Source: Prauserella aidingensis
GTDB lineage: Bacteria > Actinomycetota > Actinomycetes > Mycobacteriales > Pseudonocardiaceae
NCBI RefSeq assembly: GCF_024171865.1
Contig: NZ_JAMTCN010000004.1
Location: 186,001-250,000, forward strand
Direction: 5' to 3'
DNA length: 64,000 bases
The position numbers were made by a program, and so were the translations under genes. The notes under the pieces were generated by a model. That model did no database searches and was not told the origin of the DNA. It worked only from the letters and a program-made list of their open reading frames with translations. Shown piece by piece: positions 33,915-40,931 of this stretch. How positions within the stretch are numbered: the first letter of the stretch is position 1; each line of letters starts with the position of its first letter.

Positions 33915-34442
33915 TCAGGAGCCGCCGGACAGCTGCTCAGCGGCCTCCCGCGCCATGGCGCGCACCGCCTCGACGTCCGTGCCGGGGTCGGGCCGCGCCT
34001 GCAACATCACGCCGTCGGCTCCGGGCACCTTGCGCAGCACGAACCACGCTCCCCCGCCGTCGGCGAGGTCGGCGCGGTGCCGGGCCCGGATCGAGCCCTC
34101 GACCCGCCTCCGCACGAGCTCCGGCAGCCGCCCTGCACGCGGGACCGCGACCCGCACCGGCGGCAGGTCGCGCAGCAGCACCGCGCCGCCCGCCTCCTCG
34201 GTCTCGACGGCCTCGACCACCGTGAGCGTCCCGGCGTCCCAGCCGGCTTTACTCACCAGATGCCAGCCCACCCGCCGCGGCCCGGCCTCACCGGGAATCC
34301 ACAATCCGAGCCGCGTCACGACGACGTGCCCGTGGTCGGCCTCCGCGGCGGCGACGACGTCCTCGTCCGGGTCCAGCGCCGCGCGGACGTCGTCCGGCAC
34401 GGCCGGGCCGGAGATCCTGCGCCACCACCGCGACAGCGTCAT
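33915..34442 (-). CDS. Conserved actinobacterial hypothetical protein downstream of dnaG
   Basis: 175 residues, no membrane segment or known catalytic motif. The start overlaps the dnaG stop by 4 nt, so it is translationally coupled to primase. Basic N-terminus ([12 protein letters not shown]), mixed alpha/beta character with a strand-rich middle ([24 protein letters not shown]) and a C-terminal helix ([15 protein letters not shown]). Many actinomycetes carry such a gene in this place; role unknown. Confidence 0.82.
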
Positions 34443-36337
34443 TCGAACCCTCCGGCGGCCTGGCCCTTGAGCGCCTTCCGGTACTCCTCGAGTGCGACGA
34501 GGTCCCCGAACAGGTCGCGATACTCGTCCGGTGAGTCCACAGGAGACAGTCGTTGGAGTTTCGACTTCAACTCGCCGATCTGCCGTCCCACGAGGTTCTC
34601 CTGCACGGCCGAGAACATCGACTGCACGTACCGGGCGTCGGCCTCCCCGACCGACTGGGGCGGTTCGACCGCCAGCTCCGACAGCAGCGACGCCACACCC
34701 GCGTTCTCCGCGTGCTGCACCGCCGCCTCGAGCAGCGCCGAGCCGGACAGGCCCGCGGTCGTCCCGCCCGCGGCCAACACCGCACGGTGCACCGCCACGT
34801 AGGCGGGGTGGGTGAAGGCGTCATCGGGCAACGTGTCGTACTGCGGGCCCGCGAGCGCGGGCTCCTGCAACGCGGCCTTCAGCACCTCGCGCTGGGCCGT
34901 CCGCTCCGGGTCACGCGGGTCGGGGCGGGCGAACGCGGGTCCCGACCCGTTCTCGACGCCGGACTCGCGCGACGGCGGCTTCCGCCCCGCCGCCTTCACC
35001 GGAGCGCCCGCGCTCTCCCGCACCCGCCGCACGACCATCGCCTCGTCCTGCCAGCCGGTCCACCAGGCGAGCTTCGTCGCGTAGCCGTCCCGTTTGGCCC
35101 GGTCCTTGATCTGCGCCACCAGCGGGACGGTGCGCTGCAGCGCGGCCACCTGCCCGTCCACGGAGTCGAGGTCGTACTCGGCCAACAGGCTGCGGATGGC
35201 GAACTCGAACAGCGGGATCCGGCGGGACACCAGGTCGCGCACGGCCGTGTCCCCCTTGTTCAGCCGCAGCTCGCACGGATCCATACCTTCGGGTGCGATC
35301 GCGATGTAGGTCTGGCCCGCGAACGTCTGGTCGCCCTCGAACGCCTTCAGCGCGGCCTTCTTCCCCGCCTCGTCGCCGTCGAACGTGAAGATGACCTCAC
35401 CGCGGAAGGCGTCGTCGTCCATCATCAGCTGGCGCAGCACCCGCATGTGCTCCTCGCCGAACGCGGTGCCCGACGAGGCGACCGCGGTGGGCACGCCCGC
35501 CTCGTGCATCGCCATCACGTCGGTGTAGCCCTCGACGACGACCACCTGATGCCGTTTCGCGATCTCGCGTTTGGCCAGGTCGAGGCCGAACAGCACCTGC
35601 GACTTCTTGTAGATCGGGCTCTCGCTCGTGTTCAGGTACTTGGCCTGGATCGGATCGTCGTCGAACAGCCTGCGCGCGCCGAACCCGACGACGTCGCCGC
35701 CGCGGTCCTTGATCGGCCACACCAGCCGCCGGTGGAACCGGTCGATCGGCCCGCCTCGACCCTCCTTCGAGATCTGCGCCTTGTACAGCTCGTCGAGTTC
35801 GAAGCCGTGGTTCAGCAGGTGTTTGGTGAGCTTGTCCCAGCCACCGGGCGCGAACCCGCAGCCGAACCGGGCGGCCGCCGCCTGGTCGAAGCCGCGTTCC
35901 TTCAGGAACGTCCGCGCCGTCTCCGCCTCCGGGGTGGCGAGCTGCTCGGCGTAGAACGCCTGCGCCGCCTTGTGGACCTCGACCAGGCGCAGCCGCGTAC
36001 CGCGGTTCTCCCTGCGCACGTCGCGGCCGCCGCCCTCGTAGGTCAGCTGCAGCCCGATGCGGTCGGCCAGCCGCTCGACCGCCTCGACGAACGGCAGGTG
36101 CTCGATCTGCATGATGAACTTGATGGCGTCGCCGCCCTCACCGCAGCCGAAGCAGTGGAAGGTGCCGTGCGTCGGGCGCACGTTCATCGACGGTGTCTTC
36201 TCCTCGTGGAAGGGGCACAGGCCCTTCAGGGCACCGCCGCCCGCACGCCGGAGCGCCACGTACTCGCCGACGACATCGTCGATCCGATTGCGTTCGCGTA
36301 CCTGCGCGATGTCGCTGTCCCGGATCCGTCCCGCCAC
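34439..36337 (-). CDS. dnaG: DNA primase DnaG
   Basis: 632-residue primase making RNA primers at the replication fork. CHC2 zinc finger: Cys41, His44, Cys62, Cys65 (CPFHEEKTPS and HCFGCGEGGD). Core domain GFAPGGWDKL; TOPRIM motifs VVVEGYTDVMAMHEAG and FTFDGDEAGKKAA with the metal-binding acidic residues. A linker around residues 435-475 precedes the C-terminal DnaB-interacting helical domain. ATG start; same place next to dgt as in mycobacteria, although five other genes intervene here. Confidence 0.97.
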   Translation of the reverse strand: MAGRIRDSDIAQVRERNRIDDVVGEYVALRRAGGGALKGLCPFHEEKTPSMNVRPTHGTFHCFGCGEGGDAIKFIMQIEHLPFVEAVERLADRIGLQLTYEGGGRDVRRENRGTRLRLVEVHKAAQAFYAEQLATPEAETARTFLKERGFDQAAAARFGCGFAPGGWDKLTKHLLNHGFELDELYKAQISKEGRGGPIDRFHRRLVWPIKDRGGDVVGFGARRLFDDDPIQAKYLNTSESPIYKKSQVLFGLDLAKREIAKRHQVVVVEGYTDVMAMHEAGVPTAVASSGTAFGEEHMRVLRQLMMDDDAFRGEVIFTFDGDEAGKKAALKAFEGDQTFAGQTYIAIAPEGMDPCELRLNKGDTAVRDLVSRRIPLFEFAIRSLLAEYDLDSVDGQVAALQRTVPLVAQIKDRAKRDGYATKLAWWTGWQDEAMVVRRVRESAGAPVKAAGRKPPSRESGVENGSGPAFARPDPRDPERTAQREVLKAALQEPALAGPQYDTLPDDAFTHPAYVAVHRAVLAAGGTTAGLSGSALLEAAVQHAENAGVASLLSELAVEPPQSVGEADARYVQSMFSAVQENLVGRQIGELKSKLQRLSPVDSPDEYRDLFGDLVALEEYRKALKGQAAGGFE

Positions 36338-36389
36338 GCCCCCACTTTAGGCCAGGGCCGCAGCGCCTCCGACCGGGCATACTCGGCAC

Positions 36390-37325
36390 ATGTCCGACAC
36401 CCCGGCCGCGGCGCCCGACGAGGCCGCCCGGTTCAGCGAAGCACGTGCCCACCTGGTCGGCGTAGGATACCGGCTGACCGGCTCCCTCGCCGACGCCGAG
36501 GACGCCGTGCAGGACGCGTGGCTGCGGCTGACCTCCCTCGACGAGCAGCGGCGCGCGGAGATCCGCGACCTGACGGCGTGGCTGACGACCGTCGTCGCCC
36601 GGCTGTGCCTGGACCGCCTCCGGTCCGCGGCCGCCCGCCGCGAGCGGTACGCGGGCCCGTGGCTGCCCGAACCGGTCGTCACCGCCACCGACGGCAGGCC
36701 CGATCCGCTCGACGCCGTCGTGGCCGACGACGGCGCCCGGATGGCCGCGATGGTGGTGCTCGACACGCTGCCGCCCGAGCAACGGGTGGCGTTCGTGCTG
36801 CACGACGCGTTCGGGGTGCCGTTCGCCGAGATCGCAGGCATCCTCGGCTGCAGCTCCGACGCCGCCCGGCAACACGCCTCCCGCGGCAGGCGCACGGCAC
36901 GCGAGGCGGATCCGCCTCCCCGCGCGGGCGACGAGCACCGGCGCATCGTCGAGCAGCTGCTGGCCGCCATGGCGACCGGCGACGTCGAGGCGGTCGCCCA
37001 CGTGCTGCACCCCGACGTGGTGCTCATCGGGGACTCCGACGGCAAGGCCCGCACCGCGCGGCGCGTCATGTCGGGCGCCGACAAGATCGCCCGCTTCTTC
37101 ACGGGCCTGCTCACCGTGTACCGGCCGGGGGCGTTCGCGACCGCCCGGCCGGTACTGGTCAACGGCGATCTCGGCCTGCACCTGCCGCCTTCGCCGGGCG
37201 GCGACGGTTACCGCGACCTCGACGCCCACGTGCAGACCGTCGCCGTCTCCGACGGCCGGGTCGTGGCGATCTACGACCAGGCCAACCCCGACAAGCTCAC
37301 GCGCCTGCCGTCCCCTCCGGCCTGA
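36390..37325 (+). CDS. sigJ: ECF41-group sigma factor with fused SnoaL-like regulatory domain (SigJ-like)
   Basis: 311 residues. Sigma-2: HLVGVGYRLTGSLADAEDAVQDAWLR; sigma-4: VLDTLPPEQRVAFVLHDAFGVPFAEIAGILG. A SnoaL-like domain from about residue 190 replaces an anti-sigma partner. The ECF41 hallmarks WLPEP (linker) and NPDKL (C-terminus) are both present, plus GDSDGKA for the central Asp/Gly-rich motif. Its stop region overlaps the convergent carboxymuconolactone-decarboxylase-like gene by 29 nt, the usual ECF41 partner, which carries a matching promoter. No anti-sigma gene nearby. Confidence 0.93.
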   Translation: MSDTPAAAPDEAARFSEARAHLVGVGYRLTGSLADAEDAVQDAWLRLTSLDEQRRAEIRDLTAWLTTVVARLCLDRLRSAAARRERYAGPWLPEPVVTATDGRPDPLDAVVADDGARMAAMVVLDTLPPEQRVAFVLHDAFGVPFAEIAGILGCSSDAARQHASRGRRTAREADPPPRAGDEHRRIVEQLLAAMATGDVEAVAHVLHPDVVLIGDSDGKARTARRVMSGADKIARFFTGLLTVYRPGAFATARPVLVNGDLGLHLPPSPGGDGYRDLDAHVQTVAVSDGRVVAIYDQANPDKLTRLPSPPA

Positions 37326-37893
37326 CCTCGCCGAGTTCCACCCGGCAGGCGTCGCCGGAGGCGAACCCCTGGTCGACGATCCCGAGCGCGGCGTTCGACC
37401 GCCCGCGCATGTTCTCCAGGCCGATCTGCAACGACAGTTCGACCACCCCCGCCCTGCCGAACTCCCGTTCCAGCTCGGCGACCTGCTCATCGGTCACCGC
37501 GATCGGCGTGTCGGTCATCGCGTCGGCGTAGGCCAGGGCCAGCCGTTCCGGGCGCGTGTACAGGGGCGACTCGGCGTAGTCGTCGATGGCTTTCAGCCGA
37601 TCGATGTCGAGCCCGTCATGCTGCTGCAGCATGGTGCCGAAGTCGATGCACCACGAGCAGCCCAGCCGCACGGCGACCCGGTAGACGGCGAGTTCGCGCA
37701 CACTGGTCGGCAACACGGTGGACGCGCGTTCGGCGAGCATCTCGAACACGCCGTAGGCGCGCATCAGTTTCGGGTGGTGGGCGGTCACGGCGAACGGTTC
37801 CGGCACGGCGCCGTACCGGCGTGCGACGACGCGGTACAGCACACGGGTGACCGGACCCGCCTGGTCGGCGGTGACGACGGGGATGCGCGGCAT
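37297..37893 (-). CDS. Carboxymuconolactone decarboxylase/AhpD-like protein (ECF41 partner)
   Basis: 198 residues; AGGAGGAG six bases before the ATG. The AhpD-like core VRELAVYRVAVRLGCSWCIDFGTML has a CxxC pair (redox active in AhpD proteins) but the following His of classic AhpD is not evident. This family (carboxymuconolactone decarboxylase domain) is one of the oxidoreductase-type genes habitually linked to ECF41 sigma factors. The upstream promoter TGTCACA-N16-CGTC indicates direct control by the sigma factor encoded at 36390-37325. Confidence 0.88.
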   Translation of the reverse strand: MPRIPVVTADQAGPVTRVLYRVVARRYGAVPEPFAVTAHHPKLMRAYGVFEMLAERASTVLPTSVRELAVYRVAVRLGCSWCIDFGTMLQQHDGLDIDRLKAIDDYAESPLYTRPERLALAYADAMTDTPIAVTDEQVAELEREFGRAGVVELSLQIGLENMRGRSNAALGIVDQGFASGDACRVELGEVRPEGTAGA

Positions 37894-37933
37894 GGCGACT
37901 CCTCCTCGGGTGCGATCGGTTCTTCACCCGGGG

Positions 37934-37960
37934 GACGAGACCGCGTGCCCCGGTGTGACA
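37934..37960 (-). promoter_or_regulatory. ECF41-dependent promoter of the CMD-like gene
   Basis: Minus strand: TGTCACA (37960-37954), exactly 16 bp, then CGTC (37937-37934), 41 bp before the ATG. This is the promoter pattern I know for ECF41 sigma factors (TGTCACA-N16/17-CGTC). No such site precedes the sigma gene itself. Confidence 0.8.
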
Positions 37961-38010
37961 GGACCGGTGTGACGGGGGCCGGTGTCACAGGGCCGCGGTG
38001 TCACAGGGCC
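37952..38010. repeat. Four 14-16 bp repeats containing TGTGAC/TGTCAC next to the ECF41 promoter
   Basis: Units start at 37952, 37966, 37981 and 37997: GGTGTGACAGGACC, GGTGTGACGGGGGCC, GGTGTCACAGGGCCGC and GGTGTCACAGGGCC. The first supplies the -35 TGTCACA on the minus strand; the last two carry TGTCACA on the plus strand but without a CGTC at 16-17 bp. May be leftover or auxiliary binding sites. Confidence 0.7.
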
Positions 38011-38028
38011 GGCTCGCGGCTGCGGGCG

Positions 38029-39807
38029 TCAGGAGGACGTCAGTGACCGCACGTCCCAGATCCACATGCCGCCGCGGAGCCGTCCGGGGATGCCGATGAG
38101 CCCGTCGGCCGTGGTGCGCAGCGCCTCCGCGTCGGGGTGGCCTGCGTCCAGTACGACGAGGTCGGTCCGCCACTGCTTCAGGTCGGCCACGGCCTGACCG
38201 CGCTCGGCGCGCCCGACGCTCACGGGCAGGCCCGTCTCGTCGACCTCGTCGAGGGTCGACGACAACATCGTGCGCTGCGCCCCGTAGATGCCCGAACCGT
38301 CCTCGGCGGGGCCGACGAAGTAGCCCTCCGCGAGGGGGAAGGCCAGTCCTTGGCCGACCTGCCAGTGCAACGGGTCGGCGTACCCGGTGTCGGGCAGCGG
38401 CACGACGGCCACCGAGCGGCCCTCGCGCACGTGGTCGGCCCACCGGCCGGATGCGAGGAACTCGGGCACGGGGTCACGCTCACCCGTGGGCAGTTCGGTG
38501 GGCATGATCGGCACGAGCGCGACCAGCAGCGCGCCGAACCAGCTCACCCGCGCGACGTAGGCCCATTCCCGCAGCCACGGCAGCCGCAGCACGCGGTCGG
38601 TGGCCATGGCCAGCAGGATCCCGCCCAGTGGCGCGCACGCCATCGCCAGGCGGGATTCCAGCACGGACGACACGAGCGGGGCGTCGACGAGGAGCATCCA
38701 CGGCCCGGGAATCGAGGTCGCCGTCCCGTTCACGACGAGCAGGACGCCCATCGACAGCCACGCCATCACCAGCATCGCCACGGCGACGGCACGCGCGGCC
38801 GCGACCCGCCACAGCGCGACCGTCACGCCCAGCAGCACCAGCACGAGCGGCCAGCCGAAGAACGCGTTCTCCTCGGTGCGGTTGAGCGACAGATCCACTG
38901 CGGAGGAGTCGGTGCCGGCCAGCGACGCCGTCGCGTACCCGGTGAACGCGGCGAGGTCGTTGCCCTGGAAGCCGTGTTCGATCCCCGTGTAGCTCTGCGG
39001 GCCCGCGAACTGCCACCACAGCGGCACCGCGACGACCGCGCCCGCCACGAGCGCGCCGACACCGATGCCGGTGCCGAGCGGGCGGACCATGGGGCCGATC
39101 TCCGCGGGCCGCGACAGGGCGTACGCGAGCGCGAACACCGTCAGCGCCAGCGCCGCGATCAGCAGCGGCTCCTCCCCCAGCAGCACCTGGTACGCCGTCA
39201 GCAGCCCGAGGATCACGCCACCGGCCACCGGCCTCTCACCACGGGCCAGCAGGAGCAGCCGGTGCACCAGCAGCGGCACCAGCAGCAGGACGACGAAGTT
39301 GGGATGTGCGTTGGCGTGCGAGATGATCGGCGGCGCGAATCCCGCGAGTGCCGCGCCGATCGCCGCGGCGCCACGGGAGGCGACCACGTGCCGCGACAGC
39401 AGCCAGTACCACGCGACGGCCGTCCCGGCGAGCCCGCCGGTGAGCGTCAGCGCCCACGTCACGGTCGGTCCGAACAGGACGGTCACGGGCGTCAACGGGA
39501 TGCCCACCCCGAGCATCGCCGTGTTGGCCATGAGGTTGACGCCCAGCGGGTGGTTCTGCAGGTCGGTGTGCAGCGGATTCGACAGCGTGAGCACGTTCTT
39601 CGCGGTGACGGCGAAGAACCATTCCCACATGTTCTGGTCCTGGCCGCTGCCGGTCAGGTAACCGGAGTCGAGGTTCTGCCACAGCCCGCGGTAGATCAGC
39701 AGCGCCGCGGCGAGACAGCCCAGCACGACGAGGACGTCGGCGAGCCGGCCGCGGGCGCGCGTGTCGAGCCGCACCCCGGCAGGGGTGACGGAGGACGCGC
39801 GTGTCAC
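38029..39807 (-). CDS. Polytopic membrane protein, GT-C glycosyltransferase-like
   Basis: 592 residues from a GTG at 39807 whose GTGA overlaps the serpin stop; the frame is open further upstream but only as antisense of the serpin gene. About 12 hydrophobic segments fill residues 25-440, then a C-terminal soluble domain (from about 450, EFLASGRWADHVREGRSVAV). The first long loop GSGQDQNMWEWFF has an acidic residue where GT-C glycosyltransferases keep their catalytic Asp. Such proteins use polyprenyl-phosphate sugars outside the membrane. Assignment rests on topology, so it stays tentative. Confidence 0.72.
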   Translation of the reverse strand: MTRASSVTPAGVRLDTRARGRLADVLVVLGCLAAALLIYRGLWQNLDSGYLTGSGQDQNMWEWFFAVTAKNVLTLSNPLHTDLQNHPLGVNLMANTAMLGVGIPLTPVTVLFGPTVTWALTLTGGLAGTAVAWYWLLSRHVVASRGAAAIGAALAGFAPPIISHANAHPNFVVLLLVPLLVHRLLLLARGERPVAGGVILGLLTAYQVLLGEEPLLIAALALTVFALAYALSRPAEIGPMVRPLGTGIGVGALVAGAVVAVPLWWQFAGPQSYTGIEHGFQGNDLAAFTGYATASLAGTDSSAVDLSLNRTEENAFFGWPLVLVLLGVTVALWRVAAARAVAVAMLVMAWLSMGVLLVVNGTATSIPGPWMLLVDAPLVSSVLESRLAMACAPLGGILLAMATDRVLRLPWLREWAYVARVSWFGALLVALVPIMPTELPTGERDPVPEFLASGRWADHVREGRSVAVVPLPDTGYADPLHWQVGQGLAFPLAEGYFVGPAEDGSGIYGAQRTMLSSTLDEVDETGLPVSVGRAERGQAVADLKQWRTDLVVLDAGHPDAEALRTTADGLIGIPGRLRGGMWIWDVRSLTSS

Positions 39808-40931
39808 GGCGTGACCACCCGCGCGACGAAGTAGACGGCGCCCGTCGCGGCGTGACGCACCAGCAGCAGGAACGGCCGGTTGACGTCGATCACGACGGGG
39901 TCGCCGGTGGGCATGGCCACGAGCCGCATCGTGGCCGCCGTCGCCGCCGCGCCTTCGAGGCCGTGCTCGTCGAGTCGCAGCACCGCCTGGTGCAGCACGT
40001 CCGACACGTACAGCCGCGCGTCGTCGGAGAGACCACCGAAGTCGGCCTGCGGGGTGAACATCCGACGCACCCCCAGGCCGCGCAACGCATCGCCGAGCGG
40101 CACCGGCACGTCGAGCGACACCCGCGGCATCGTCAGCCGCACCTGCTCCGGCGCCAGCGACCCGAGCAGCTCCGCCAGCGCCGCGTCGTCGAGGGCGGTC
40201 TCGGCGTCGGCGAGTCGGCGGTCCGGCAGCAGGACGACCGCTTCGACCCCGCCGACCGCAGGCACCGCGACCGCTCGCCAGCCCGGCGTCTCGGCGTAGC
40301 GCATCCGGGCGGTCTGCCGCATCATCGGCACGGGCAGCGGACCGTCCGGACCGTGGAAGTCGCCGTCGGTCGTCGCCTCGGCGGGGAACGGGTGGCGCCA
40401 GGCGCAGCGCAGGTAGAGCGCGTTGACCAGGGCGGCGACCGTGTCCGGGCCGACCGCGCCCGGCGGCAGCAGCTCGGGGATCAGGTTCCGGGTGGTGGCC
40501 GCCACGTCGGCGTTGATCTCGACCCGGGCCGCCTCGGGGTCGTCGACGAACGGTGCCGCGGCGACCCGCCCCGACGCCCGGCGTTCGAGGTCGGCGGCGT
40601 AGCCGTCGTCGACGGCCAGCCCGTCCCACGCCCACAGCGTGTTCGACACCGTGAGGACGGGCTCCTCCTGTCCGGCGCGGGTGTCGAGCGCCGCGGCGGC
40701 CTCCAGCAGGCGGCGCTGGCCGGCGAACGTCGACTGCGGCCCCACCAGCAGTGCGCCGATCTCGTCGGCGGTCTCACCGCGCGCGCCGTCGGCCACGAGG
40801 CCGAGCGCACCCGCCGCCGAGTACGGGGACACGCAGGCGTCGTCGGTTCCGGCGCCGGACGCGGTCGCACGATGCACGGCGAGCGCGAACGTCAGGTGCG
40901 CAGCTTCCGCCGGGTCCGTCGTGACCTGCAT
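39804..40931 (-). CDS. Serpin (serine protease inhibitor)
   Basis: 375 residues, full serpin length, no signal peptide. Hallmarks: ACVSPYSAAGALGLVADGARG and TADEIGALL near the N-terminus, VSNTLWAWDG, VNALYLRCAWRHPF, and the hinge/reactive-loop region VLHQAVLRLDEHGLEGAAAT followed by VNRPFLLLVRH. The hinge consists of small residues (GAAATAAT), as needed for inhibitory loop insertion. Counting from the hinge, P1 would be near Val/Leu, suggesting an elastase/subtilisin-like target, but this is uncertain. Serpins are patchy in bacteria. Confidence 0.92.
   Translation of the reverse strand: MQVTTDPAEAAHLTFALAVHRATASGAGTDDACVSPYSAAGALGLVADGARGETADEIGALLVGPQSTFAGQRRLLEAAAALDTRAGQEEPVLTVSNTLWAWDGLAVDDGYAADLERRASGRVAAAPFVDDPEAARVEINADVAATTRNLIPELLPPGAVGPDTVAALVNALYLRCAWRHPFPAEATTDGDFHGPDGPLPVPMMRQTARMRYAETPGWRAVAVPAVGGVEAVVLLPDRRLADAETALDDAALAELLGSLAPEQVRLTMPRVSLDVPVPLGDALRGLGVRRMFTPQADFGGLSDDARLYVSDVLHQAVLRLDEHGLEGAAATAATMRLVAMPTGDPVVIDVNRPFLLLVRHAATGAVYFVARVVTP

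Follow-up and report, generated by a model that had tools for sequence, protein, structure and literature searches.

The convergent sigma factor and CMD (carboxymuconolactone-decarboxylase) family genes of the window, the 64-kb stretch of DNA analysed here, are an ordinary ECF41 pair, accompanied by a species-specific duplication of the -35 region that has no demonstrated function. We regard the whole account, namely a standard ECF41 pair with one promoter and a lineage-specific -35 duplication that makes up a neutral minisatellite, as likely. According to this account, the sigma factor would be restrained by its own SnoaL-like C-terminal domain and, once activated, would bring RNA polymerase to the single TGTCACA-N16-CGTC promoter of the convergent CMD gene. 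During the descent of this species, a -35-bearing segment of 14-16 bp (CCGGYCC-TGTSACA) would have undergone tandem duplication upstream; the three additional -35-like boxes that resulted have no -10 boxes. These boxes would most likely form a neutral minisatellite, with transcription still starting from the one complete promoter. The features concerned are collected in Table 1.

Table 1. Coordinates of the features discussed in the text (positions in the window unless another contig is named).
Feature	Position	Strand	Details
Sequence GGGCATACTC, directly 5' of the sigma ATG	36375..36384	+	Same in 5 same-genus sequences
ECF41-type sigma factor gene, SigJ subfamily	36390..37325	+	311 aa; sigma2, sigma4, SnoaL-like C-terminal domain
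CMD/AhpD-like family gene, presumed sigma target, convergent	37297..37893	-	198 aa; Pfam CMD
ECF41 promoter TGTCACA-N16-CGTC (predicted)	37934..37960	-	-35 at 37954-37960, -10 at 37934-37937
Tandem array, CCGGTGTSACAGGG on + strand, four TGTSAC cores	37949..38012	.	Tandem Repeats Finder; 14-16 bp units
Second ECF41/CMD pair, divergent	G000:C34:29312-30893 (L074)		Two promoters pointing apart

As originally predicted, the sigma factor is of the ECF41 type and contains WLPEP and NPDKL. WLPEP occupies residues 91-95 in the linker between sigma2 and sigma4, while the C-terminal extension carries DSDGK at residue 215 and NPDKL at residue 299, which may correspond to two of the three motifs conserved in this extension among ECF41 sigma factors. 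The assignment is one of homology: the protein scored 359 bits against NCBIfam PRK09636 SigJ (cut-off 271), and Pfam PF04542 Sigma70_r2, PF08281 Sigma70_r4_2 and PF12680 SnoaL_2 were all found above cut-off. WLPEP was kept in 53 of 54 sigma sequences of the window type and in 21 of 22 of the type found at the second ECF41 locus (the 22 include one sequence twice). The closest solved structure was that of M. tuberculosis SigJ, which likewise has a SnoaL-like domain (PDB 5xe7, chain A; E=7e-91, query residues 10-307 aligned). The available sections of a 2022 review give SigJ as an example of an ECF41 sigma factor with a SnoaL-like domain, and describe this tail as inhibitory through contact with the linker.

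The exact TGTCACA-N16-CGTC motif that the original prediction had given for the convergent partner gene was indeed found before this CMD gene, on the minus strand, with 40 nt between its -10 and the ATG. With spacers of 15-17 allowed, the 64-kb window contains no other strict site. Homology and motif together support it as the predicted target promoter of the window ECF41 sigma factor, and we infer its recognition by this sigma factor from the studied ECF41 members. In the available text of Wecke et al. 2012 (PMC3426412), transcription starts were mapped in B. licheniformis and R. sphaeroides, the adjoining CMD genes were the only detectable ECF41 targets, and TGTCACA-N16-CGTC was derived from 285 sequences. 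The window locus resembles the ECF41/COE pair as presented there in its WLPEP linker, its C-terminal extension, its neighbouring CMD gene preceded by TGTCACA-N16-CGTC and the absence of a recognisable adjoining anti-sigma gene. For an ECF41 pair, this locus is ordinary.

When the dnaG, CMD, membrane protein and serpin open reading frames were compared with Pfam and NCBIfam, none of these neighbours matched a family of anti-sigma factors; the membrane protein had no match to any family in either collection. The strict search of the 64-kb window (spacer 15-17) gave no ECF41 promoter motif for the sigma gene itself, and autoregulation was rejected because the sole strict site is the CMD promoter. 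The sequence GGGCATACTC, which was identical in five same-genus sequences and differed in a sixth from another genus, is possibly the housekeeping -10 of a leaderless sigma transcript.

The conservation of the pair was studied in CMD loci gathered with the convergent-type CMD protein as query; 80 loci were named, being the best 80 of 581 relatives, with Prauserella nearest. Because of this query, the 80 loci are a biased sample of ECF41 pairs. A convergent downstream sigma gene was present at 71 of these best 80 of 581, and the remaining nine had no sigma match in the 1.6 kb flank, two of them (L092 and L106) being cut by a contig end. This differs from the ECF41 survey, where the convergent order accounts for 9 of 373 cases (2%) in the available text of Wecke et al. 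2012 (PMC3426412): an order that is rare there is common among the nearest CMD relatives. The relatives with this order (among the best 80 of 581) belong to Prauserella, Amycolatopsis, other Pseudonocardiaceae and some Rhodococcus.

In the same best 80 of 581, the strict promoter was found at 32 loci and the relaxed promoter at 72, always with a spacer of 16 even though 15-17 was allowed. When the first base was left free and N16 required, 77 of the best 80 had a site and three (L115, L148 and L155) had none; the -35 read TGTCACG at many of the Amycolatopsis sites. Within the genus (seven genomes), a close CMD orthologue was present in five, only a weak match in one and none in one. In the four same-genus orthologues other than that of the window, the promoter lies at -67 or -68 and there is no array. 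The CMD promoter of the window could be aligned with those of five orthologues. The genus set and the 80-locus set overlap by three loci, since L086-L088 share coordinates with G006, G005 and G004. We also read 11 convergent CMD promoters, omitting L010 (CMD start past the locus edge), L027 and L030 (CMD 37-43% identical), L031 (the same place as L001) and L032 (a weak hit at a second locus). Ten of these 11 agreed with the relaxed pattern, while L015 has GGTCACA instead. By sequence comparison, the sigma/CMD pair and its promoter are thus conserved. The surroundings of the pair (34439-40931) consist of dnaG, the convergent ECF41 and CMD genes, the membrane protein gene and the serpin gene. 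Within the 1.6 kb CMD flanks of the best 80 of 581, dnaG was matched at 49 loci, the membrane protein at 32 and an upstream serpin at 17. Serpins are uncommon in bacteria.

The predicted 29-nt overlap between the 3' ends of the two genes, proposed to allow antisense effects, was borne out by their coordinates (Table 1), the shared 29 nt including both stop codons. The 71 convergent pairs from the best 80 of 581 relatives lay anywhere between an overlap of 74 nt and a gap of 1401 nt, with gene ends at most 150 nt apart in 50 pairs and overlapping (by 4 to 74 nt) in 26. The overlap was exactly 29 nt in only four of the 71, and conservation of this particular length was rejected. Tail-to-tail closeness is therefore common, while the length of the overlap itself is not conserved.

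Tandem Repeats Finder described the array with a period of 14-15, about 4 copies and a score of 71-73. Its cores lie at 37954-37960, 37968-37974, 37983-37989 and 37999-38005, with starts spaced 14, 15 and 16 bp. The original description of four repeats in 59 bp, two in each orientation, was right about the four cores; these cover 52 bp, and the first of them is the -35 box of the CMD promoter itself, so that there are three extra copies rather than four. Moreover, TGTSACA is its own reverse complement save for the central base, and the two orientations thus amount to a one-base difference. Toward the CMD gene the extra copies read CGTCACA, TGTGACA and TGTGACA, which means that none of them is a perfect TGTCACA in this direction. 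Read on the plus strand, two of the extra copies are identical to TGTCACA, and the degenerate copy, CGTCACA on the minus strand, is TGTGACG. The original statement that there are no extra -10 boxes was upheld, since no CGTC or CGTT occurs at N15, N16 or N17 of any core but that of the promoter, on either strand. A second or divergent promoter within the array was rejected on the same evidence.

Four core starts within 60 bp occurred in none of 200 third-order Markov simulations (the maximum was 3, in 3 of 200). The copies are therefore not independent, and duplication accounts for them; this result shows common origin, not function. With 19 Tandem Repeats Finder rows in the window, some of them for one and the same array, short imperfect tandem repeats are common in this DNA. 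Like other short G+C-rich actinobacterial minisatellites, the array repeats a short unit imperfectly and only a few times; it differs from them in that a promoter -35 box lies within it. TGTSACA is intact in three of the four copies while the unit length varies from 14 to 16, so the cores have been preserved somewhat better than the spacers. Weak selection could also explain this, four copies being too few to decide.

The array was present in one of the 11 convergent CMD promoters, that of the window, which represents one strain of the species. None of the best 80 of 581 loci had two or more TGTSACA within 200 bp, and shortened cores numbered at most two within 300 bp. In the alignment, the array appears as extra DNA that separates the end of the upstream gene from the one -35 box that is conserved. 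A search for the array in 60 genomes with a 72-bp stretch, which scored at most 15 candidates per genome, gave a full match in its own genome only among the matches listed, the runner-up there being 35 bp long (E=1e-6), and presence of the same array elsewhere was rejected within this scope. One exact array pattern of 27 bases had no match in the genome contig collection, from which the own genome may be left out. Three (L065-L067) of five partial matches (L065-L069) were short arrays with a period of about 14 when judged by eye. These lie in other genera, at about position 1500 of their loci, and consist of loosely similar GGTGTGAC-like units. Roughly 3 kb surrounding each of these three arrays was compared with both ECF41 and both CMD proteins and gave no match; only the L067 array is clearly non-coding. 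An upstream repeat array is not mentioned for ECF41 in the available text of Wecke et al. 2012 (PMC3426412), and our literature search found no report of tandem promoter duplication with ECF sigma factors.

We conclude that the array probably goes back to a tandem duplication, specific to this lineage, of a 14-16 bp unit spanning the -35 box. It is probably neutral and probably arose by replication slippage. The earlier notion of relics of promoter duplication is favoured, given that the array is absent from the ten other promoters and that none of the best 80 of 581 loci has TGTSACA more than once in 200 bp; in its more exact form, only the -35 segment would have been copied and not a whole promoter. 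Several differences have built up among the copies, which means that the array is not entirely new and is perhaps older than the split from the nearest relative, with later loss there.

We considered whether the extra TGTSACA boxes might instead be decoy or auxiliary -35 sites, as also proposed originally. They would then titrate the ECF41 holoenzyme or raise its local concentration, thereby tuning the CMD promoter. The repeated core indeed equals the -35 box that the cognate sigma factor would use, or differs from it by one base; TGTSACA is kept in three of four copies, and two extra copies match TGTCACA exactly on the plus strand. However, none of the three does so toward the CMD gene, none is accompanied by a -10 at N15-17, and no such array was seen in orthologues (the ten other promoters; best 80 of 581 loci). 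ECF sigma factors, furthermore, normally bind DNA as holoenzyme. The genome contains 147 copies of TGTCACA (71 forward and 76 reverse) versus 170 for the reversed-pattern control, which makes isolated -35 boxes neither rare nor enriched, and three more would barely alter this pool. Decoy action by titration was judged unlikely in view of this count, the missing -10 boxes and the lack of conservation in the best 80 of 581 loci. The proposal of decoy or auxiliary sites thus gained no positive support, and we regard it as unlikely. It is quite improbable, too, that the extra boxes are a species-specific regulatory change, in which a row of contact sites for sigma region 4, spaced 14-16 bp, would alter the arrival or departure of the ECF41 holoenzyme and promoter strength would evolve by slippage of the -35 segment. 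The array offers a natural means of testing whether spare -35 boxes have an effect.

The inverted TGTGAC...GTCACA pairs also raised the idea that the array is an operator for some other, dimeric regulator, such as a CRP/GlxR-like protein. The operator consensus of CRP/GlxR is TGTGA-N6-TCACA. One TGTGA-N12-TCACA pair does occur within the array, but the N6 spacing was found neither in the array nor elsewhere in the 64-kb window, on which grounds a CRP-type operator was rejected. Together with the absence of the array upstream of orthologous CMD genes (best 80 of 581), this makes the operator idea very improbable. It is equally hard to believe that the array serves the upstream gene as a transcription terminator or 3' stem-loop. 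The array contains inverted repeats and occupies most of the gap between the stop of that gene at 38029 and the CMD promoter; yet its RNA fold was no stronger than that of shuffled sequences (z +0.43), 127 of 200 shuffles folding as well or better, and relatives have no array at the same place. An RNA hairpin or terminator was rejected on the fold energy. Neutral duplication of the -35 segment is the reading that we prefer.

The genome scan suggested with the original prediction yielded five TGTCACA-N16-CGTC sites (two for the reversed-pattern control), three of which are at the two ECF41 loci: the window site and two at the second locus. The other two, C3:442468 and C7:77961, are within long open frames. 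With spacers of N15-18 there were 14 sites (control 5). Among the nine non-N16 sites, a mechanical listing placed seven inside open frames of more than 200 codons and two, C22:53644 and C41:325, outside. These two ECF41-like promoter matches (G000:C22:53644-53669 and G000:C41:325-352) have N15 and N17 spacers and could be further ECF41 targets.

One further protein of the genome exceeded the SigJ cut-off, at C34, where the second pair is located (Table 1). Two ECF41 paralogues thus occur in one cell, and the promoters at their loci share the -35 and -10 cores but have different bases just before the -10. At the 77 window-type sites (best 80 of 581 loci), position 21 before CGT[CT] is C in 71 and position 22 is T in 61 and C in 16, with GG at none of the 77. 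At the second locus within the genus, GG precedes CGTC at 9 of 9 sites (five genomes). The family-wide second-type set comprised 30 loci (L166-L195), of which nine without a sigma match were left out. For the remaining 21 loci, with divergent sigma genes, a looser pattern detected 16 sites, of which 13 have GG and the three others belong to L182 and L189. These 16 sites fall in 12 loci, and the other nine loci have none. With a stricter pattern and all 30 CMD loci, sigma gene present or not, GG was found at 10 of 15 sites. The window-type and second-type promoter sets were obtained in separate searches that used different patterns. Between the sigma sequences of the two types (54 versus 22, with one of the 22 present twice) there are differences at almost invariant residues, including, in region 2, W/Y at 64, T/V at 66, T/R at 67 and V/I at 68. 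This comparison, noticed after the fact, suggests a possible paralogue-specific element adjoining the -10; if real, the bases before the -10 would offer a simple and testable means by which paralogous sigma factors could be kept separate.

The CMD protein of the window is barely above the Pfam CMD cut-off (24.8 versus 23 bits), and a profile built from 11 of its orthologues matched CMD/AhpD-like structures. AhpD-type proteins have a CxxCxxxH motif. The window protein carries E-X11-CSWC-IDFG, with Gly at the position of the AhpD His, and the CMD protein of the second locus (C34) retains CGWCVDMH.
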